Below are positions 3,533 to 36,992 of a DNA stretch of 40,859 nucleotides, piece after piece; position 1 is the stretch's first letter, and each line of letters starts with the position of its first letter. The notes under the pieces are model-generated. The model was not told the DNA's origin. It worked only from the letters and a program-made list of their open reading frames with translations, and did not search any database. This stretch comes from a virus: IMG/VR virus record IMGVR_UViG_3300014720_000063, positions 1 to 40,859 of that record; one strand, given 5' to 3'. Position numbers and translations under genes: made by a program.

Positions 3533-4663
3533 TCAGGACTCCTTTCGTGTAGCGATGCCGGTGCGCACCAACCAAAGACCCGCCGGCCGATCCAGCACCC
3601 GATATCCCGCAGTGGCAATACGAGACATATTTGCTGCTAACAAGGCGCGATATATGCGTGTCTTTTGTTGCTCTTTCGCCCCGCTGCTAGTGTCTGACCC
3701 CGTTATGTCGATTGAGGCAGGTTGCCATTGTGTTGCAAAGTCTAAGAGGGCTTCCAGCACGGTGCTCATGAGACGCAGGTAATTGACTTGCCCCGCTGCC
3801 GCGCTACGTGAATGCGCCACAGTATGGCCTTGACCGTCTTGGGTAGGCGTCAGCATGGCAAATGCCCATTGTTGGTGTCCTTGGTCCACCATTGCTAGTG
3901 TGATGCGTTGCCCATCTGCTTGGAATTGAGTTTCTCGGTGTCCTTCGTCATGCAGCTTCCATGCAAATTGTGTGGCATAAGGTGTCACCCCGCCTAAAGT
4001 TATTTCTGTTAAAATGGGTTTCAATTTAATTGCATGTTCGGATGGTCCATTACTTGGAAGATCTTCCCAATCTTGCATGTTGCTCATGTCGGGCCCGGGA
4101 AATGCTGTGGAATCTATAGGCAGCGTATAACACACCATCCATTCCATAATGTTACCCGGGTCAACCTTAAGGCGAACGGGCCCTTGCAGATTGGGCTTGT
4201 CTTTCGTGTGTTTAAGAATGATATTTGGGCCCGGAGTCCCGCCCATACTGCCTCTACGATCGATCTGCCAACGCTTAGCGTCATCAGCTTCTGCAAGCAT
4301 TGGTATTGTGATTGTTACATCGTACGTACCTTTGTTGACTCGACTAGTAATTGCAACGTTGGCAATGTCGGGTCGCAGCGGTTGATCCTTTAGCCATGGA
4401 TTGCATTCGCATATCAACACGTTGAATATTTGATGCAAGGTATCTCCACTGCCGCGATCCGCATGCGATATAGCCCATCCGCTGGCTGGACCTGTATATG
4501 CAAGTCGAAATGCAGCATTAGATTTTTCAATATCGATTTTGGGACGTACGCGACCATCGGCCGTTTTTCCCCCATCCCAATTGGCTTTGGTTTCCGCCCA
4601 ATGTGCACAGGATTTCCAAGATTCACCCGTCCATTCCATCAACAATTGCTTTAATCGTATCAT
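3533..4663 (-). CDS. Unknown 376-residue protein with head-targeting-like leader
   Basis: I chose the ATG at 4663 rather than an upstream in-frame start. It gives MIRLKQLLME|W, matching the shared leader, and sits 3 nt behind an ATATTTATT box. The protein is about 376 residues. I recognise no family. It is rich in Trp, His, Thr and Gln and looks mixed alpha/beta, with a helical C-terminus (KEQQKTRIYRALLAANM). The last third of the gene is visibly more GC-rich than its AT-rich neighbours, which suggests separate acquisition. Packaging in the head is inferred from the leader only. Confidence 0.65.
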   Translation of the reverse strand: MIRLKQLLMEWTGESWKSCAHWAETKANWDGGKTADGRVRPKIDIEKSNAAFRLAYTGPASGWAISHADRGSGDTLHQIFNVLICECNPWLKDQPLRPDIANVAITSRVNKGTYDVTITIPMLAEADDAKRWQIDRRGSMGGTPGPNIILKHTKDKPNLQGPVRLKVDPGNIMEWMVCYTLPIDSTAFPGPDMSNMQDWEDLPSNGPSEHAIKLKPILTEITLGGVTPYATQFAWKLHDEGHRETQFQADGQRITLAMVDQGHQQWAFAMLTPTQDGQGHTVAHSRSAAAGQVNYLRLMSTVLEALLDFATQWQPASIDITGSDTSSGAKEQQKTRIYRALLAANMSRIATAGYRVLDRPAGLWLVRTGIATRKES

Positions 4664-5813: not shown

Positions 5814-6764
5814 CTAAGCCGGGATGATTTGTTCTGCAATCATCATCTTGGGATTCTCAAAGCCCATTGCACATATGCGGGCTGCCTTGATAAAGCTACG
5901 GAGGTTAATCTCTACTCCATCAAACTCTTCATCGAGCTCCTTCATCAACTGCATTGCCTGCTCCTTAGCTGGCATCGGGATGCGACGCTCCATTGTCGCC
6001 ATCAGCTGTTCCATTCTAATAAACATCTGGTTTGTTGACAAGGCAACATCACTTACAAAGCTGCGTGAGCGAATTGCTTCATCAAGTTTGCTTTGGTTGA
6101 TGTTGGAGATAAAGATGATGCGCCCGGTAAACTCAAAGTGACGTGGCACTTCATTGCCATACTCATCCTTGAGCGTCTTTGTGGAGATGTAACTAATCTT
6201 GCGGGTGTCATATGAATCCAAAGCCGCTTTGAGGATATTCACTGCATCATCGTCTTTGAATATGGAGTCGCAATCATCCAACACAATAACCTTGTCGCTA
6301 TTCTCATACAGCGTAATAAACAATCCGGCCGGGGTAGCACGACCCTTGAAGTGAACAAAGTCGCTAGACTCCCTAAGGCCCAATGACTCCAATGTACTCT
6401 TAACCAAATGCGTCTTGCCGGTACCTGCGCCTCCGGTAATAACAAGTGACGGTTGAATACCACGCCCTACCATTTTAGTCAGCCGCTCAATGTTTGCAAA
6501 CATCTCCTCCGGGTCTTGTTGCTCTTTAGCATGCATAAAGGACATCCTGGCTACTGGTGGTGGAGTCAATGCAACACCCATATCCATTGCTGGTACTCGA
6601 GTCACTCGGCCCGTTGTGGATACTACTAATACCTCACGGTTCTTCTCAGCATTCAATAGCTGGATGTGTCGGATGGTGTCTTTAGGCGCTATGCTACCTG
6701 TGGTTGTGTTCTTGGCAAACAACTTGCCTTTAATTCTAACTGGTTCAAAAACATTACTCGTCAT
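5814..6764 (-). CDS. AAA+ ATPase
   Basis: The protein has 316 residues. Walker A is GGAGTGKT at 111-118 and Walker B is VIVLDD at 159-164. A sensor-1-like strand RIIFISN is at 215-221 and RSRSF follows near 232-236. The first 95 residues form a small beta-rich N-terminal part of unknown role, followed by the ATPase core and a helical lid. Phage AAA proteins of this size remodel DNA or protein complexes; the target cannot be read here. The gene has its own early-type promoter and an AAAAAGAGAGATAT leader. Its position among small, individually promoted genes suggests early expression. Confidence 0.85.
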   Translation of the reverse strand: MTSNVFEPVRIKGKLFAKNTTTGSIAPKDTIRHIQLLNAEKNREVLVVSTTGRVTRVPAMDMGVALTPPPVARMSFMHAKEQQDPEEMFANIERLTKMVGRGIQPSLVITGGAGTGKTHLVKSTLESLGLRESSDFVHFKGRATPAGLFITLYENSDKVIVLDDCDSIFKDDDAVNILKAALDSYDTRKISYISTKTLKDEYGNEVPRHFEFTGRIIFISNINQSKLDEAIRSRSFVSDVALSTNQMFIRMEQLMATMERRIPMPAKEQAMQLMKELDEEFDGVEINLRSFIKAARICAMGFENPKMMIAEQIIPA

Positions 6765-7129: not shown

Positions 7130-7148
7130 TGGACTGAGAGATATATCT

Positions 7149-7523
7149 TTATTGATCCTCGGAGCTGTCATCGCTCGCATCCTCATCCGCTGTCTCCTCA
7201 AATATGTTTTCCAATTCCTCGCGTATGTTATTAACTATACTATCCGTGTCGATACGCACATCCACCAATTCGACGGTGTTGTTGTAATTCAATTCAAACT
7301 CTGCATCGTCAAAATCAACTATGTCGCGGGTGCGCAAATTGCAAATTGCATTATCAACAATGTCCATTACCTTGCCAAACGACTCCTCATTTAATAGGAA
7401 CGTCTTGCTTTCGACTTGCTCCGCCTCCAACTGCTGGATAAGGGCAATCACTTTGTCAATGTCAACTTGTGAAGATAACGTCTTTGCTGCTTCTAACTGT
7501 GCTACTAATTCTACTTTTTTCAT
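7149..7523 (-). CDS. Acidic coiled-coil-like protein, 124 residues
   Basis: The protein begins MKKVELVAQLEAAKTL and is rich in Glu, Asp and Val. Its last 20 residues are strongly acidic (EETADEDASDDSSEDQ). The first half is probably helical or coiled coil. An acidic tail of this kind can mimic nucleic acid or bind basic partners, but no family is recognised. Its promoter is at 7575-7603, and the transcript would carry an unusually long A-rich leader of about 50 nt. Confidence 0.7.
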   Translation of the reverse strand: MKKVELVAQLEAAKTLSSQVDIDKVIALIQQLEAEQVESKTFLLNEESFGKVMDIVDNAICNLRTRDIVDFDDAEFELNYNNTVELVDVRIDTDSIVNNIREELENIFEETADEDASDDSSEDQ

Positions 7524-10444: not shown

Positions 10445-10807
10445 CTAAAAGCCAACAAACCCTACTTTGAGTGATAACTCTAAATCTTCTGCTATTTCCT
10501 TTAAGCGATAGTAAGGAGCATCTTCTATTTCTTCTTCAACGCGTCTGGCAACATCTGCTACGCTAAATCCATGGCCAAATCCATAACACAATACAGCCTT
10601 TTGAATTTTAATCATCTCCGGCAATGCATAATCCAGCCATTCCGAATCAGACCCAAACATTTCTACATCCATATCGCATGCAGCGGTCCACATTTCAAAC
10701 ACTTTTACTTTAACGGCTTCGGCAACCTGATCATTATGGTCATACATTGCCTTGCTCCAAGGCTTAACGATCTCAATTCCGTACTGGACTTTTTTTGCTT
10801 TTTTCAT
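10445..10807 (-). CDS. Unknown acidic helical protein, 120 residues
   Basis: I chose the ATG at 10807 (MKKAKKVQYGIEIVKPWSK) because it follows AAAAAGAGAGAAT; the longer in-frame start lies inside the promoter. The protein is mainly helical and acidic (VARRVEEEIEDAPYY, KEIAEDLELSL). No family is recognised. It is the first of the block of individually promoted genes after the 0.9-kb gene-free region and two micro-ORFs. Confidence 0.7.
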   Translation of the reverse strand: MKKAKKVQYGIEIVKPWSKAMYDHNDQVAEAVKVKVFEMWTAACDMDVEMFGSDSEWLDYALPEMIKIQKAVLCYGFGHGFSVADVARRVEEEIEDAPYYRLKEIAEDLELSLKVGFVGF

Positions 10808-10830
10808 ATTCTCTCTTTTTAATTTATATA

Positions 10831-10859
10831 AAGATAAGTAAAATAATAATGCGATCCAA
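10831..10859 (-). promoter_or_regulatory. Early-type promoter (TTGGAT-N17-TATCTT)
   Basis: TTGGAT lies at 10854-10859 and TATCTT(TA) at 10831-10836. Here the upstream tracts are T runs on the coding strand. Confidence 0.75.
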
Positions 10860-10895
10860 CCTTTTCGCAAAAAAAGTTTAAAAAAAGTTATTCAC

Positions 10896-10920
10896 AAAAA
10901 AAGGGCGACCGAAGCCGCCC
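10896..10920 (-). terminator. Rho-independent terminator with TTCG tetraloop
   Basis: GGGCGGC-TTCG-GTCGCCC is followed by TTTTTTT on the minus strand. It ends the short transcript that starts at the promoter at 11224-11252. Confidence 0.9.
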
Positions 10921-11013
10921 GTGGTACACGCCTGGGAATAAGAGAGAGAAACCCGTTGGTCATGGTACCCAATGTGGGACGGGATCGATGTGTTGGGGAC
11001 TAGGTCCTTGTGG
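10921..11013 (-). ncRNA. Transcribed non-coding stretch, possible structured RNA
   Basis: Between the micro-ORFs and the TTCG terminator I see no convincing gene. The adjoining region repeats GGATCG-type words and contains the perfect palindrome TCGTTATAACGA (near 11060-11071) and a TCGAT/ATCGA stem. A promoter lies upstream and a strong terminator follows, so this could be the 3' part of a small RNA of about 300 nt. Confidence 0.3.
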
Positions 11014-11100
11014 TTACGATCCCGCCAAGTGTGAAGGTCGATCCAATGAATCGATCCCTTCGTTATAACGATCCGCCAGGTGCGTCTGGTAGGAGCACAT
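11014..11100 (-). CDS. Possible micro-ORF, 28 residues
   Basis: The frame reads MCSYQTHLADRYNEGIDSLD and then RPSHLAGS. It follows the 27-residue membrane peptide in the same predicted transcript and has GGGAACA just before the ATG. The sequence is hydrophilic with no recognised family. It could equally be part of a structured RNA, because the same bases form inverted repeats. Confidence 0.3.
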   Translation of the reverse strand: MCSYQTHLADRYNEGIDSLDRPSHLAGS

Positions 11101-11118
11101 TGTTCCCGGACCCCGTCG

Positions 11119-11202
11119 TTATTTTCGTCTACGTTCTCGGATTACGATAGCCGCAATCAATGCTAGCAACGTTACCATCCAAGCTATAAATACTATCATC
11201 AT
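11119..11202 (-). CDS. Single-span membrane micropeptide, 27 residues
   Basis: The peptide is MMIVFIAWMVTLLALIAAIV followed by IRERRRK. A continuous hydrophobic span is followed by a strongly basic tail, so the C-terminus should stay in the cytoplasm. AGAAAG precedes the ATG and a well-formed promoter lies 22 nt upstream at 11224-11252. The function is unknown. Confidence 0.6.
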   Translation of the reverse strand: MMIVFIAWMVTLLALIAAIVIRERRRK

Positions 11203-11223
11203 CTTTCTGCTTATTACGCTTAT

Positions 11224-11252
11224 ATAATATGAAATACGCGCACAACATCCAA
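11224..11252 (-). promoter_or_regulatory. Promoter (TTGGAT-N17-TATTAT)
   Basis: TTGGAT lies at 11247-11252 and TATTAT(AT) at 11224-11229 with 17 nt between. The -10 matches those of the MoxR-like and VWA genes. Confidence 0.75.
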
Positions 11253-11324
11253 CCGAAAAGTAAAAAAAGTTTACGCTGTATAGCTAGAGAACCAAATAAA
11301 ACCGGGTCTAAAACCTGGTTTTGG

Positions 11325-11841
11325 TCTAAAAATAGGACACCATTGGACTAAAAATCAAACGGGTATTGCTCTAAAAATGGCCTAAAAATAGGGCATATTG
11401 GTCTAAAAATAACGGGAGGGTGCGGATATTGCTCTAAAAATAAACTGTTCAGATCACTAGCTATAACGACACGCATAATGCATCTAAAAATAATGTGGGT
11501 ATTGGATTCACTATATATAGAGCGCACAATGGACTAAAAATAACCTTCACTCGGACTAAAAATAAACAGGGAGATGATGCCATGATTCATCTAAAAATCG
11601 CGCATATCGGTCTAAAAATAGGTGCATCATGATTGCGGCTCATACAGTTCGTTTAAGAACATTGTAGCCCTTTTGGAGTCTAGATACCAGGTCGACCACA
11701 ATAAAGACGCTATGCCCCGCCAAAACAAGTAGGACCGGCAGGGAGATATCTAATCTACCTTGCTGGATGCTACTACACACTAAAACTACAATTCATTCTA
11801 AAAATGCGTCTAGAATAATTACGTGTACTCGTCTAAAAATA
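11325..11841 (+). repeat. Array of 13 direct YCTAAAAATR repeats
   Basis: Copies start at 11325, 11347, 11370, 11381, 11402, 11433, 11483, 11533, 11555, 11590, 11611, 11797 and 11832. All point the same way and nine end in CTAAAAATA. Most are preceded by GG(T/A), GC or CA. Steps in the first eleven are mostly 11, 21-23, 31, 35 or 50 nt, mostly near multiples of one helical turn, so the A5 tracts fall largely on one face of the DNA. Confidence 0.85.
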
Positions 11842-12021
11842 ACAAGGCATCGGGAGCCATACTAGACTCTGATACGGTTACGCCAGTACCAGTAACGTAC
11901 CGGGGAAACCTGGGTACGAGGGGAGTCATGAGCTTATATGCATATATACTTATTGCATACTCGTCTCTTATACTTGCATATGCTCGTGCTTTCGTCGTAT
12001 ACTAATTATTCGTCTTCAGTA

Positions 12022-12064
12022 TCCGTAAACATTGCATTGCTACGGCTACTTGTTAGTTTACGGA
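12022..12064. repeat. Inverted repeat TCCGTAAAC / GTTTACGGA
   Basis: A perfect 9-bp inverted repeat has arms at 12022-12030 and 12056-12064, with a 25-nt spacer. It abuts the terminator of the gene at 12110 and could be a protein-binding site or a cruciform. Confidence 0.5.
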
Positions 12065-12068
12065 CAGT

Positions 12069-12091
12069 AAAAAAGGAAGCTAGTGCCTCTT
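12069..12091 (-). terminator. Probable rho-independent terminator
   Basis: A short imperfect stem (AGAGGC / GCTTCCT) is followed by TTTTTTACTGT on the minus strand. The stem is weak, but the tail matches those of the terminators at 2467 and 21887. Confidence 0.5.
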
Positions 12092-12109
12092 TTCCGTTAA
12101 CGTATTTTT

Positions 12110-12466
12110 TTAAAAGTTAGGGTTAGAAAGCCAGTTTGAAAATGTAATCGTATTGAATTTTCCTAAATATTTATCGCCATAATTAACATAAAAAGATTGT
12201 GGGCGCTGAAACCATGTTAATCTAAGAGTCTTACCATAAAACTTTTTGGTAGCTATTGTATAGGTTGAGTTAAACGCAAATCCACTTAACCCCAGTTGGT
12301 AGCTACTAATAGCTTTATTGCTAGTTAAATGTGGTTTATTCATTACATTAAATATGTCGGGCCCTAAATCTTTAAAACTACCATTATCTGCAGGTTCTGG
12401 TTGTTCCATAATCAATGGGTTAACATTCTCAAGTTGTGATTGTAATAATTGATTTAAACGTATCAT
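12110..12466 (-). CDS. Unknown 118-residue protein with head-targeting-like leader
   Basis: The protein begins MIRLNQLLQSQLE|N, close to the shared leader, and LIME|Q at residues 19-22 gives an I-x-E site. The body is Asn/Ser/Phe/Tyr-rich and probably beta (FAFNSTYTIATKKFYGKTL, RPQSFYVNYGDKYLG). No family is recognised. A late-type box lies 25 nt upstream. It borders the repeat region. Confidence 0.6.
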   Translation of the reverse strand: MIRLNQLLQSQLENVNPLIMEQPEPADNGSFKDLGPDIFNVMNKPHLTSNKAISSYQLGLSGFAFNSTYTIATKKFYGKTLRLTWFQRPQSFYVNYGDKYLGKFNTITFSNWLSNPNF

Positions 12467-19411: not shown

Positions 19412-19420
19412 TATAAATAT
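19412..19420 (-). promoter_or_regulatory. Late-promoter-like box ATATTTATA
   Basis: The coding strand reads ATATTTATA, 76 nt before the start at 19335, touching the end of the upstream gene. Confidence 0.4.
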
Positions 19421-21858
19421 CAACGAATCAAAATTATATGACCGGTAACAGTATATTTTGCATCTGTATTTTTATCACCAAACCAAATCTTATATGTATA
19501 TACGCCATCTGCACATAATGCATTGTTATATGTACCATCCCAAGCTGCTTCTGCCCAATAAGATTCCCATACCATTTCTCCCCAACGATTGAATACCGTT
19601 AAATGAAATTCTGCAGGATCAAACCCTGAGGTAAACACCGGGCGCCATGTTTGATTGTGTTGGTTACCATCTGGCGTAAATGTATTTGGTACATAATACA
19701 ACATCTGTGGACAACGAGATACCGTTACCGTTGTGGTTGTAGGTTCTGAAACACATCCATCGACTGTATGCGTTGCTTGTATCACATACATTCCGGCATT
19801 GTTCCATGATACTGTTAGTGTCGGAGATTGTGTTACGTTGCCTAACAACGTCCATTCTGTTATGCCTGGTGCAGTAACTGCGGCTGCATATGATGATACG
19901 ACTGAATCGCCTTCGCAAATTTGTATGAATTCATCATTTGGAGTAATTGCTAATACTTCAGGCTGTGGATATACTGTTACGGTTGTGTAAGATGTAAATG
20001 CACAATTGCTCTGTGTATATGTATATGATATGCTATTTGTTCCAATTGCATTGGTTGGGTCTAACGTATTACCAGTAACACCCAATCCAGCAAACACGCC
20101 ACCCGCAGGAATTGCTGTGAGTGTTGCATTTGCATCATATACGCAGAATGGACCAATGGTATCGATTGTTGGAACAATATTTAATATGAACACATTAACC
20201 GTAACAGGTGCACTTAGGCAACCAAACTGATTTGCTGCTACTACTTGAACGGCTCCGCCTACTAATCCTGCGTTTAATGCACTACAATCTACCGTGATGG
20301 CACTTGTTCCTTGCCCCGATGTAATTGTTCCTGGTGTTGTCCACGCGTATGTATAACCTGGTTGCGTTGGCACCGAATATGTTGCAGCAGTCTCTCCTAG
20401 GCATACGGTATCAAGTGATGCAATAGGACCAGTAATTACCGGAGGCGGATCAATCAACGTGATGGTGTTAGATGAAGTACATCCATTAGCATCAGTTACC
20501 ACTACAGCATATGTACCTTGACACAACGTTGTAGCTGTTTGAGTGATTTGTCCATTGCTCCAAGCATAAGTATACGGAGCTACGCCATCAACCGGATTAG
20601 CAGTTGCAGTGCCATTACAATCTCCAACACATACGGGATTGGTTGAAGTTATCAGCGGATCTTGTAGTGGGGCTGGATCGATCAATGTAGCAGATGTAGT
20701 TATGTTGCAACCATTGATATCGGAAACGGTTACTGTATATGTTCCTGCACAAAGACCTGTTAATGAATTTGTTGTTTGACCCGTTGTCCATGTATACGTA
20801 TAAGGTGCAGTACCATTAGTTGGAGTAACAACTAAAGTACCATCGCACGCAGCATTACATAATGGATCTGTTATAACAAAGTTAGGTTGATTGAGTACTG
20901 GAGGACCTGGTACTACTTGCACCGTATCTGGACCTAAGCCTACTCCTGCATTACATGTTGACCATCCTGCATTGCAAGCCGGATACTCTAGATGACAAGT
21001 ATAATAAGCTCCACCGGCTGGAGGTGTTACAGTGATCTGATTAACGTTTTGTGCAATAGGCACTGGGTTTCCTACTTGATACCACACTAAGGTTGGTAGC
21101 ACAGCAGCACCGTTAGGAGTGTATCTTCTAGCATCTTGCTGAGCAGTCCATTGTGTTGAGTTTCTACCGAGTACAGTGACCGCCTGTGTTCCCGCTGCGT
21201 TATGGATTCCTTGCACTGCAGTGCCTCCCGCCCATTGCGGGCAGTTTGGTTTAACGGCAATATGGTTTTCAATGTAATTGGTTGATTCATAAATTACTAT
21301 ATGAAATGTACCCTGTGTGCTAGTACACAAAAACATAGGCATGTTAATCCAACTTACAACCAACTTTCTGCAAGGAGCAGTACCCTGAACTTGATATCTA
21401 ATTTGACCACCAACACCAGGATGCCAATCCTGCCAAGGGCCCATAATGCAATTCTTTGGTACCGCAGCATTCATCGAAGGTATTGCTATTGATGCAAATG
21501 TTGTTGGCTGCACTCCCGCACCTAATGATATCCAACCATTGGATCCTATTCGAAACTGGGTATAGGTTTGTCCATAAAAGCAAAACGTAAAACCAATGTT
21601 AAACGTACCCGATTGTGAATCATCTGACAGCTGTACCAATGTACCCGTATTGGTCTGCATAACATATGGTATTGTTGAAACCGCATATGAAGTGGTTTGA
21701 TTGGGATTGCTTCCTGCTCCGCATTGAGATAGGTCCGCTGTCAATGTAGTTGAGTTTACTCCGCAAGGAAGAATTTGATCTGGCCCTAATGCGGGACAAT
21801 ACTGAGAATAAGATATGGTGCTAACTAGCATCCAAATAAGTGCGTATACGTGCTTCAT
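19420..21858 (-). CDS. Secreted SprB-repeat protein with gliding-motility type C-terminal domain
   Basis: The protein has 812 residues. The N-terminal signal peptide ends near Ser18 (MKHVYALIWMLVSTISYS). Residues about 85-250 form a large beta domain of the kind seen in Bacteroidetes surface proteins. Two tandem SprB-type repeats follow at about 325-470 (GTAPYTYTWTTGQTT, GVAPYTYAWSNGQIT, each ending in TVSDINGC or VVTDANGC). The last 90 residues (YVPNTFTPDGNQHNQTWRP, FNRWGEMVWES, GVYTYKIWF) are a textbook CHU_C/type B sorting domain used by the type IX secretion system. It is presumably exported through the host system. Its role in the phage is open: adhesion, receptor masking or altered gliding. 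Confidence 0.85.
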   Translation of the reverse strand: MKHVYALIWMLVSTISYSQYCPALGPDQILPCGVNSTTLTADLSQCGAGSNPNQTTSYAVSTIPYVMQTNTGTLVQLSDDSQSGTFNIGFTFCFYGQTYTQFRIGSNGWISLGAGVQPTTFASIAIPSMNAAVPKNCIMGPWQDWHPGVGGQIRYQVQGTAPCRKLVVSWINMPMFLCTSTQGTFHIVIYESTNYIENHIAVKPNCPQWAGGTAVQGIHNAAGTQAVTVLGRNSTQWTAQQDARRYTPNGAAVLPTLVWYQVGNPVPIAQNVNQITVTPPAGGAYYTCHLEYPACNAGWSTCNAGVGLGPDTVQVVPGPPVLNQPNFVITDPLCNAACDGTLVVTPTNGTAPYTYTWTTGQTTNSLTGLCAGTYTVTVSDINGCNITTSATLIDPAPLQDPLITSTNPVCVGDCNGTATANPVDGVAPYTYAWSNGQITQTATTLCQGTYAVVVTDANGCTSSNTITLIDPPPVITGPIASLDTVCLGETAATYSVPTQPGYTYAWTTPGTITSGQGTSAITVDCSALNAGLVGGAVQVVAANQFGCLSAPVTVNVFILNIVPTIDTIGPFCVYDANATLTAIPAGGVFAGLGVTGNTLDPTNAIGTNSISYTYTQSNCAFTSYTTVTVYPQPEVLAITPNDEFIQICEGDSVVSSYAAAVTAPGITEWTLLGNVTQSPTLTVSWNNAGMYVIQATHTVDGCVSEPTTTTVTVSRCPQMLYYVPNTFTPDGNQHNQTWRPVFTSGFDPAEFHLTVFNRWGEMVWESYWAEAAWDGTYNNALCADGVYTYKIWFGDKNTDAKYTVTGHIILIR

Positions 21859-35054: not shown

Positions 35055-35244
35055 TTTGTTTTTGTTTTTCTGTTAATATAACTATTTTGCGCCATGCATC
35101 TTCTGCACGGTATGCATATGTTTTAAACTTAATGATATCAAGTTTTTTTCGAGCTGCTTCCATACGGCGCATATTGCGATGATAAGTTGCATGCAACAAT
35201 GCAATGTGGAAACGAATAATGTAATTACGAATTTTTCTTAACAT
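35047..35244 (-). CDS. Small basic helical protein, 65 residues
   Basis: The sequence MLRKIRNYIIRFHIALLHAT continues with Arg- and Lys-rich helix (RNMRRMEAARKKLDIIKFK). A basic amphipathic helix suggests nucleic-acid or membrane binding. It overlaps the ClpS-like gene by 20 nt. Confidence 0.55.
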   Translation of the reverse strand: MLRKIRNYIIRFHIALLHATYHRNMRRMEAARKKLDIIKFKTYAYRAEDAWRKIVILTEKQKQNG

Positions 35245-35500
35245 GTTTTTCTAGTGTTGCAGTTAAATTGCATTTAATAAAATATTCATATACGGCTTCG
35301 CAGGCATCATGAGTATCTATAAATACTGCACAACGGCCTACGTTATGCACAATTAATGCACATTGATGCGCTTGAAGTTCGTTGTGATCGCATGCATCCA
35401 TGATGCACCCTATTACGTGATCAAATGTATTGCGATTATCGTTGAGTAATACAACTTGATACTTGCCTCGTTTAGAGGGTTTCGATACTTTCTTTGACAT
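35225..35500 (-). CDS. clpS: ClpS-like adaptor protein
   Basis: I chose the ATG at 35500 (MSKKVSKPSKRGKYQVVLLN), which gives a normal ClpS length of 91 residues. The core YQVVLLNDNRNTFDHVIGCI matches ClpS, with Asn20-Asp21 of the substrate pocket and Asn in place of the third Asp. ALIVHNVGRCAVF carries the conserved His52. In bacteria ClpS delivers proteins with N-terminal Phe, Tyr, Trp or Leu to ClpAP or ClpCP. The NTFDHVI and QCALIVH pieces look like the Bacteroidetes type. It could redirect host Clp protease during infection. Confidence 0.85.
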   Translation of the reverse strand: MSKKVSKPSKRGKYQVVLLNDNRNTFDHVIGCIMDACDHNELQAHQCALIVHNVGRCAVFIDTHDACEAVYEYFIKCNLTATLEKHVKKNS

Positions 35501-35672
35501 CGCGTATAATTGCACATTGTTCATATAATTCTCGATCCGTAGCATATCGCAGCGATTCATTCAAAAAATGCAATCTGCGTTCTTTACTCCATTGTTCTGG
35601 CCACTCCCAATTGTTAGTTGCCATGGTGTTAATCGAATCAATAAATAATTGTTCTATAAAGTTTTGATTCAT
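35472..35672 (-). CDS. Small UVR-like helical protein, 66 residues
   Basis: The C-terminal helix pair (LRYATDRELYEQCAIIRDVK) resembles the UVR motif found in UvrB, UvrC and Clp partner proteins. UVR motifs in McsA and ClpC-like systems bind Clp chaperones. It lies directly upstream of clpS and overlaps it by 29 nt. I infer a possible Clp link, with moderate doubt. A promoter lies at 35678-35706. Confidence 0.55.
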   Translation of the reverse strand: MNQNFIEQLFIDSINTMATNNWEWPEQWSKERRLHFLNESLRYATDRELYEQCAIIRDVKESIETL

Positions 35673-35707: not shown

Positions 35708-36265
35708 TTATGCAGTTAAAATGTCATATACTTTAGTTAAACTCGATACTTTAGGATATGTTGATTTTACGCCATCTATAATAGTTTTAATATAGTTTTT
35801 AGTATTATTTTCACTCGGGGGAGCATATGTATACATGAATTGTTTTATAGTCGGCTTTTCACCTTTCACGTATTTAGGTGTCATGTTTAAATTTGTACTA
35901 GTACTTGGCATATCACCACCTGCCCATTTTTTTATTTTCATATCAATTAGTGCCTTTGCCCCTAAAACTGGCGAAGAAAATTTAGCATATTTGCCATTAG
36001 TTTCTTGAACAACTTTTGGATCAATTGTTGTAAAACTATCTTGATACATTAAATTACCTGGATTGTTATTTCGATATGCTCTAGAACCTTTACCTGCATT
36101 TGCAGTTGCTAACCAACCTTCTTGTGTTCCTATTATTTTAGCTAAAATGTACTCCGCAGATGTTTTTGCATATCCGGTTTGATCTAATACAGATGTTAAA
36201 CTAGTTTTGTCATATGTTACTTCATTGTTATCAAATTCAACAAGCAATGATTTTAATCGCATCAT
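35708..36265 (-). CDS. Structural P5-like lysozyme with head-targeting-like leader
   Basis: The protein has 185 residues. The leader MMRLKSLLVE|F fits the group and an L-x-E site. The RNNNPGNLMYQ motif near residues 65-75, the later GAKALIDMKIKKWAGG, and IKQFMYTYAPPSENNTKNYI are typical of P5-like peptidoglycan-degrading enzymes of phages. It would cut cell-wall glycan during entry or release. It overlaps the next upstream gene by 4 nt (ATGA). Confidence 0.8.
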   Translation of the reverse strand: MMRLKSLLVEFDNNEVTYDKTSLTSVLDQTGYAKTSAEYILAKIIGTQEGWLATANAGKGSRAYRNNNPGNLMYQDSFTTIDPKVVQETNGKYAKFSSPVLGAKALIDMKIKKWAGGDMPSTSTNLNMTPKYVKGEKPTIKQFMYTYAPPSENNTKNYIKTIIDGVKSTYPKVSSLTKVYDILTA

Positions 36266-36663
36266 GATTTTTTACCCCAATTCTTTGCACCTTTCTTTCT
36301 ACAAGCTGATAGTGCTAATGATCCGTATGCCGATGGCCACGTTCCGCCGTTTTTAGTATATCTTCGTTTAACTTTGTAGTAGCAAGCATCACGCTTTGCT
36401 TTTTCTTCTTCAATAGCACCTTCAGCCTTAGGAGTACGTTTACCCATACCCACTCGGCGCTTTTGTGCAACTAACGCTTTCTTTTCTTTTTTATCAAATG
36501 AACTCCACGTTTTAGGAGTATCTTTGGAAACTCGTCGCGACGGACGACATTTCTTAACGCTTTTGGTTTCGTCGTTGCCACAAGGACGTCCATGTTGATC
36601 TGTCCATTTTTCCTTTACCCATCGGCGAAGGTCTTCTGACAATAAATCAACTAAACGTATCAT
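36262..36663 (-). CDS. DUF5872-like basic protein with head-targeting-like leader
   Basis: The protein has 133 residues. The leader is MIRLVDLLSE|D. A DUF5872-like part follows (RRWVKEKWTDQHGRPCG, CRPSRRVSKDTPKTW), and then a second known phage module near 90-130 (DACYYKVKRRY, WPSAYGSLALSACRKKGAKN). It is strongly basic, so binding to DNA or RNA in the head is plausible. It overlaps both neighbours by 4 nt, forming a three-gene set of leader proteins. Confidence 0.75.
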   Translation of the reverse strand: MIRLVDLLSEDLRRWVKEKWTDQHGRPCGNDETKSVKKCRPSRRVSKDTPKTWSSFDKKEKKALVAQKRRVGMGKRTPKAEGAIEEEKAKRDACYYKVKRRYTKNGGTWPSAYGSLALSACRKKGAKNWGKKS

Positions 36664-36992
36664 CGTCCACGTTCCTCTCGGATAATCAATTCGCCTAAGA
36701 CTTCTAAACGACCTACTTCACGTTGAAATTCAATTTGAGACATTGAAGTAGAAATCTTTTTATATGTAGCATCAAACTCTTGTTTAGCTTTTTCTAAATC
36801 AAATTTTCCGTTTGCTGCTCGTTTATAATAAGGCAATTTAACTTTGAAATGATGCCATGTTAATAAAGCCAATCCGCCTTTCTTATGAGCTGTAGTTGCA
36901 ATCTTCTCTGCCCCAGCTTCTCGGGTATCGGCAAATGTTTCAAAAGTCTCTTTTTTATCTTTTGATTCAAAAAGTAAATTCATTAGTTTCAT
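36660..36992 (-). CDS. Conserved phage protein with head-targeting-like leader, 110 residues
   Basis: The ATG at 36992 gives MKLMNLLFE|S, fitting the leader and an L-x-E site, 3 nt behind a late-type box; the longer in-frame start overlaps the SET gene. The body TFADTREAGAEKIATTAHKK, GLALLTWHHFKVKLPYYKRA and MSQIEFQREVGRLEVLGELI is a module that I recall from other large phages, of unknown function. It is helical and charged. Confidence 0.7.
   Translation of the reverse strand: MKLMNLLFESKDKKETFETFADTREAGAEKIATTAHKKGGLALLTWHHFKVKLPYYKRAANGKFDLEKAKQEFDATYKKISTSMSQIEFQREVGRLEVLGELIIREERGR

Follow-up and report, generated by a model that had tools for sequence, protein, structure and literature searches.

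What is the role of a cluster of short DNA elements, all pointing the same way, that lies between two genes of an uncultivated T4-like phage? The window, i.e. the whole stretch of DNA analysed, comprises the 40,859 bases of a virus record, which represents a fragment. The original prediction was that 13 same-direction elements within 517 bp of gene-free DNA mark a replication origin or a strong control region. The count is borne out. The octamer CTAAAAAT occurs exactly 13 times on the + strand at 11326–11840, and has no copies on the − strand in 10871–12109. The gap holding this array is 1.24 kb long and is flanked by genes at 10445–10870 and 12110–12466. With rates taken from the rest of the window, the chance expectation is 0.019 copies (about 0.02) per 517 bp on one strand, while dinucleotide shuffles of the gap gave a mean of 0.14 copies and a maximum of three. 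Among all 8-mers of the window, CTAAAAAT is the most clustered. Only three further copies were found in the remaining 40.3 kb (both strands), so that the claim of a local concentration stands. The decamer TCTAAAAATA is found exactly at six places and with at most one mismatch at 12 sites, and the thirteenth site (11347, ACTAAAAATC) has two mismatches to it; the invariant unit is the octamer rather than the decamer. The elements are as follows.

11325–11334, + strand, element 1, TCTAAAAATA
11347–11356, + strand, element 2, ACTAAAAATC
11370–11379, + strand, element 3, TCTAAAAATG
11381–11390, + strand, element 4, CCTAAAAATA
11402–11411, + strand, element 5, TCTAAAAATA
11433–11442, + strand, element 6, TCTAAAAATA
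11483–11492, + strand, element 7, TCTAAAAATA
11533–11542, + strand, element 8, ACTAAAAATA
11555–11564, + strand, element 9, ACTAAAAATA
11590–11599, + strand, element 10, TCTAAAAATC
11611–11620, + strand, element 11, TCTAAAAATA
11797–11806, + strand, element 12, TCTAAAAATG
11832–11841, + strand, element 13, TCTAAAAATA

Two parts of the original description need correction. The 517 bp are not evenly occupied, since they include an element-free stretch of 176 bp (11621–11796) with a separately conserved core. The array itself is gene-free, but a 27-aa membrane-peptide ORF lies just downstream of it, on the − strand.

Successive elements in the window are separated by steps of 22, 23, 11, 21, 31, 50, 50, 22, 35, 21, 186 and 35 bp. 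Rayleigh tests of phase, uncorrected for the periods tried, give p values of 0.033 at 10.5 bp and 0.0008 at 11.0 bp, and helical phasing is suggestive from the window alone. Across relatives it is firm. After removal of homologous spacers, 149 independent steps of up to 70 bp cluster at 11–12, 21–23 and 30–36 bp, with a best period of about 11.2 bp, and none of 5,000 jittered spacer sets was as strong. The earlier claim that phased A-tracts lie near one face of the helix is therefore upheld in that neighbouring elements tend to lie about 11 bp or a multiple of it apart, but a strict 10.5-bp phase is broken by steps of 34–36 and 50 bp. As these long steps blur the phase, permanent curvature is a weaker claim than was first made; the clustering near the helical repeat instead favours a DNA-bound protein repeating on one face. 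In a logo of 253 elements, the octamer widens to roughly WTTSGTCTAAAAATARM. The centre of the element, CTA-AAAA-TAG, comes close to a palindrome; nevertheless its reverse, CTATTTTTAG, is never present, which suggests that an asymmetric A-tract or a polar assembly matters.

Relatives were gathered by means of the window's sigma-factor gene, and several loci were recovered independently by the octamer pattern alone. No sigma-linked relative with sufficient sequence upstream lacks an array: 7–16 exact octamers lie upstream of sigma in 19 of the 22 loci carrying this gene, and in the remaining three the contig ends 0.6–2.5 kb upstream of it. More distant relatives, for example L018, L034, L041, L061 and L073, have arrays of 6–16 copies. 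Pattern matches in L016, L019 and L030 proved to be unrelated simple tandem repeats and were discarded. Over 27 loci there are 299 forward octamers and no reverse ones, and one-mismatch variants over 23 loci number 66 forward and one reverse. The array lies 1.7–4.9 kb upstream of sigma, in constant orientation, and the sigma–AAA block downstream of it is syntenic among relatives. Each long genome (records of ~160–170 kb from the same phage group) has one array cluster. In four of five pairwise comparisons the octamers change less than the spacers; for the two closest pairs the values are 2.9% against 12.8% and 1.0% against 8.8%. The exception, L126/L127 (octamers 33%, spacers 25%), probably reflects element turnover or misalignment, and this reversed comparison suggests that the array gains and loses copies. 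The presence of an array at the same place in related uncultured T4-like phages argues that it is a real control site. The two cultured relatives checked, Mel-JY01 and immuto, have no array, which indicates that such phages can replicate without one. DNA-level relatives in INPHARED gave only 23–25-bp matches.

The element-free stretch in the array often measures 183–189 bp, or 207–231 bp where a copy is missing, and contains a core of about 150 bp. A core-only pattern search of all viral contigs returned 19 stretches, of which seven lacked core context and are chance matches. All 12 true cores lie within an array of 8–16 forward and no reverse octamers. One strict pattern found no exact match to the core in host genomes. 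No RNA fold of the core received covariation support on either strand, and structured RNA in the array or core was rejected for want of covariation. The core and two further motifs lie in the gap as follows.

11650–11781, strand not assigned, conserved core between elements 11 and 12, with blocks CGTTTAAGAACAT, ATAAAGACGCTATGCCCCG, GGGAGATATCTAATC and CTACTACACACT
11274–11289, − strand, TAGCTATA-type palindromic motif upstream of promoter P1, identified by eye
12018–12050, strand not assigned, conserved hairpin AGTAGCCGTA..TACGGATACT at the far edge of the gap

The TAGCTATA motif, within about 25 conserved bases, recurs near P1 and inside the arrays of relatives (L128, L129 and L133), in either orientation.

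Next to the array in the gene sense (− strand) comes P1, an early-type promoter-like site consisting of GGTTGGA and TATTATAT at the constant early-promoter spacing, and then a short region with the following features.

11219–11254, − strand, P1, with GGTTGGA at 11248–11254 and TATTATATAAG at 11219–11229, 20 nt from TTG to TATTAT
11119–11202, − strand, tiny hydrophobic ORF of 27 aa, MMIVFIAWMVTLLALIAAIVIRERRRK
11070–11113, − strand, RNA domain D2, GGGTCCGGGA..GTGC..GCAC..CCTGGCGGATC
10979–11025, − strand, RNA domain D1, an 8-bp outer stem around loop strands AACCACA / AACAC
10896–10958, − strand, terminator hairpins, of which 10896–10920 is GGGCGGC-TTCG-GTCGCCC-T7

When relatives were scored with a family of patterns, a P1 match was found at the array edge (within ~110 bp) in 21 of 23 loci; in L129 some elements overlap P1. 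The same arrangement, GGTTGGATCGCATT with TATCTTTATATAAATT, precedes other window genes, as in the early promoter at 10821–10861. In G001 and G003, early promoters throughout pair GGTTGGATCGCATT with TATCTTTATA, and late promoters carry aTATTTATAttaaa, mostly 20–35 bp upstream of start codons. The P1 transcript is predicted to be short, to contain two structured RNA domains and to end at intrinsic terminators. The D1 stem shows two-sided changes at all eight pairs in nine sequences; 98.6% of cells are paired, and the covariation score is 1.0, compared with 0.32 for shuffled and at most 0.19 for slid alignments; the sequences were chosen by motif and the stem was laid out by hand, which somewhat favours the stem. 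The D1 model matches only beside these arrays in 1.05 Mb searched. D1/D2 domains are also found in L129, L136, L133, L128, L130, L009, L139, L140 and L073. No Rfam family matches the locus, D1 and D2 included, and a known RNA family was rejected on this basis. Downstream of P1, relatives variably have a hydrophobic ORF of 26–34 aa, another unrelated ORF, or structured RNA alone. As the P1 product varies while the array persists, the array is not linked to any single gene.

The sigma-linked relatives include records of 159,586 and 169,328 bp, the former probably complete in view of its 64-bp terminal repeat. It encodes a T4-type replication set (family B polymerase, clamp loader, DnaB-type helicase, RecA/UvsX and a fused gp46/47-like protein) and a T4-type terminase. 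The host probably belongs to the Bacteroidota, as judged from a T9SS sorting domain and from early promoters close to the flavobacterial type. The domain (T9SS type B, TIGR04131, E 1.5e-10) is in an 812-aa protein with a signal-peptide-like start at 19420–21858 (− strand). Many unrelated proteins share a MIRLKxLLxE N-terminus, with 9–11 such proteins per long relative; in the window they are encoded on the − strand at 470–2383, 2537–2974, 3533–4663, 35708–36265, 36262–36663 and 36660–36992. This start resembles a T4-type capsid-targeting propeptide and suggests a large set of head-packaged proteins. A phage homologue of the Clp protease adaptor ClpS is encoded at 35225–35560 (− strand). In L062, a weak tRNA match stretched to 112 nt (7145–7256, − strand) is possibly a tRNA with an insertion.

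The array may be an iteron-type protein-binding site at a replication origin, or an origin-like control site, comparable to T4 oriE. We hold this reading tentatively, and judge it the most likely one because the array persists as the P1 product changes, occurs once per genome, has polar, phased elements and accompanies a T4-type replisome. The 13 elements would be binding sites of a probably phage-encoded protein, which would load on them and line up along one side of the helix in a single direction. With the core and the adjacent P1, they would make up one origin-like locus that operates in the manner of T4 oriE: transcription from P1 through the short, structured, terminated RNA could assist duplex melting or provide the T4-type replisome with a primer. 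That a protein binds, that P1 is active and that replication starts at the array are all proposed here from sequence.

The main rival, which ranks next and is possible though less probable, is an operator or enhancer array: a phage regulator on the phased sites would switch P1 and its structured RNA on or off, and might do likewise for the early gene block behind P1 (g10445 to sigma to AAA). The proximity of P1 to the array edge, the elements overlapping P1 in L129 and the synteny of the downstream sigma–AAA block are all consistent with such a regulator. However, 10–16 sites over 0.5–0.9 kb, together with a core 400–550 bp away, are excessive for one promoter, the product transcribed from P1 is not conserved, and the terminators separate the P1 unit from the following gene, for which a separate early promoter is present. 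Alternatively, the elements might themselves be a battery of promoters, given that on the gene-sense strand they read TATTTTTAG, like the TAnnTTTA −7 box of the phage's early promoters, which TATTTTTA fits; the flavobacterial sigma-A −7 consensus is TAnnTTTG (PMC9723704). This is highly improbable. There is no TTG box at the 20-nt spacing of P1 and the early promoters and no TTG enrichment in the logo; the free positions of the −7 box are invariant in the elements, whereas its first T is present in only 78%; the late promoters (aTATTTATAttaaa, aTATTTATA) have a different motif; and a step of 11 bp is too short to accommodate RNA polymerase. Tandem promoters were accordingly rejected: the elements have no −33 box and fit neither the early nor the late promoter motif.

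The single site per genome, the polarity and the period close to 11 bp would also suit a centromere-like, packaging or DNA-organising site. There, as with ParR on parC, a protein filament would start from the polar sites spaced at about 11 bp and serve segregation, packaging or compaction. We consider this unlikely. A general scan of the proteins, rather than a dedicated one, revealed no partition gene, a partition site would be superfluous in a virulent T4-like headful phage, and P1 and its RNA would be left unexplained. Less likely still is a repeat acting at the RNA level, in which a long − strand transcript with UAUUUUUAGA copies would bind or sponge an RNA-binding protein. The adjoining D1 and D2 are clearly RNA on the − strand, but near-helical DNA spacing would be unexpected for RNA, the core lacks a covarying fold, and P1 is situated downstream of the array, so that its transcript excludes the array.

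The origin-like reading of the locus was examined further for features expected of iteron origins. The copies share one orientation at one locus and are in step with the helix, the strict 10.5-bp phase being partial. The GC content of the gap (0.416), the core (0.449) and the P1 transcript region (0.486) exceeds that of the window (0.381); there is thus no obvious AT-rich unwinding element, and AT-rich sequence is confined to the surroundings of P1. GC skew, proposed as a check, shows no switch here, which says little about an origin because almost all genes share a strand. No initiator gene was recognised: a Rep_3 search gave no match, and a RepA_N search, which likewise gave none, carries no weight because its control failed to match. 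The missing initiator gene, the GC content and the array-free cultured relatives speak against an origin. An AAA+ protein encoded at 5814–6764 (− strand) keeps about 70% identity among these phages and a syntenic position relative to sigma and the array. It has only weak Hda and Orc1/Cdc6 matches, and its structure model (pLDDT 74) matches generic AAA+ folds only; it is a possible partner (initiator) of the array. We regard as rather doubtful the further proposal of a phage origin of a class not yet described, which would combine a polar, semi-palindromic A-tract array and a putative initiator with a promoter whose D1/D2 RNA acts as a primer or protein-binding scaffold. Conservation, a single locus per genome, polarity and near-helical spacing agree with the original prediction of an origin or strong control region, which as an interpretation is only partly supported.

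Iteron arrays at origins are already known as a kind. The present array family, its element, its core and the D1/D2 RNA were absent from the papers, phage records and RNA families searched, which are partial collections. Like iteron plasmid origins, the array has several same-direction, protein-binding-like repeats in helix step beside an origin-like core; unlike them, it has no Rep_3 gene or evident AT-rich unwinding element, and accompanies a T4-type replisome. The ParR/parC centromere has direct repeats ~11 bp apart, whereas spacing in the array is mostly 21–23 bp with varied spacers, and the general protein scan showed no par operon. RepA_N iterons are semi-palindromic direct repeats around a poly-A tract (PMC7145576). 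The element CTA-AAAA-TAG resembles those of the staphylococcal plasmids pTZ2162 and pSK41 and of the PLE satellite of Vibrio cholerae, but its arms are just 3–4 bp, its copies are more numerous and its spacing is variable.

The closest arrangement is that of T4 oriE, a cluster of direct-repeat iterons that depends on an early promoter and has very small ORFs nearby; iterons also occur in syntenic regions of close T4 relatives, but oriE is one of several T4 origins, and what its iterons do is undefined (PMC3016281). The array shares with oriE the direct-repeat cluster in a T4-like phage, the very small ORFs nearby and, with an early-type P1 sequence at its edge in 21 of 23 loci, a predicted early promoter alongside. 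Where oriE has the repEA/repEB genes, some loci of the array carry a tiny membrane ORF. The likeness found is one of arrangement rather than of sequence, and the array is a putative origin. The oriE repeats are 12 nt long and evenly spaced, whereas the array consists of an octamer (a semi-palindrome of 10–12 bp) at uneven multiples of about 11 bp, and has in addition the 150-bp core and structured RNA domains. The array locus can serve as a marker for this phage group, which is uncultured and widespread. With one array per genome, strict polarity, fixed elements, fast spacer turnover and an association with a promoter and structured RNA, this family is a cleaner case than T4, in which the use of initiator-bound iterons by T4-like phages becomes directly testable.
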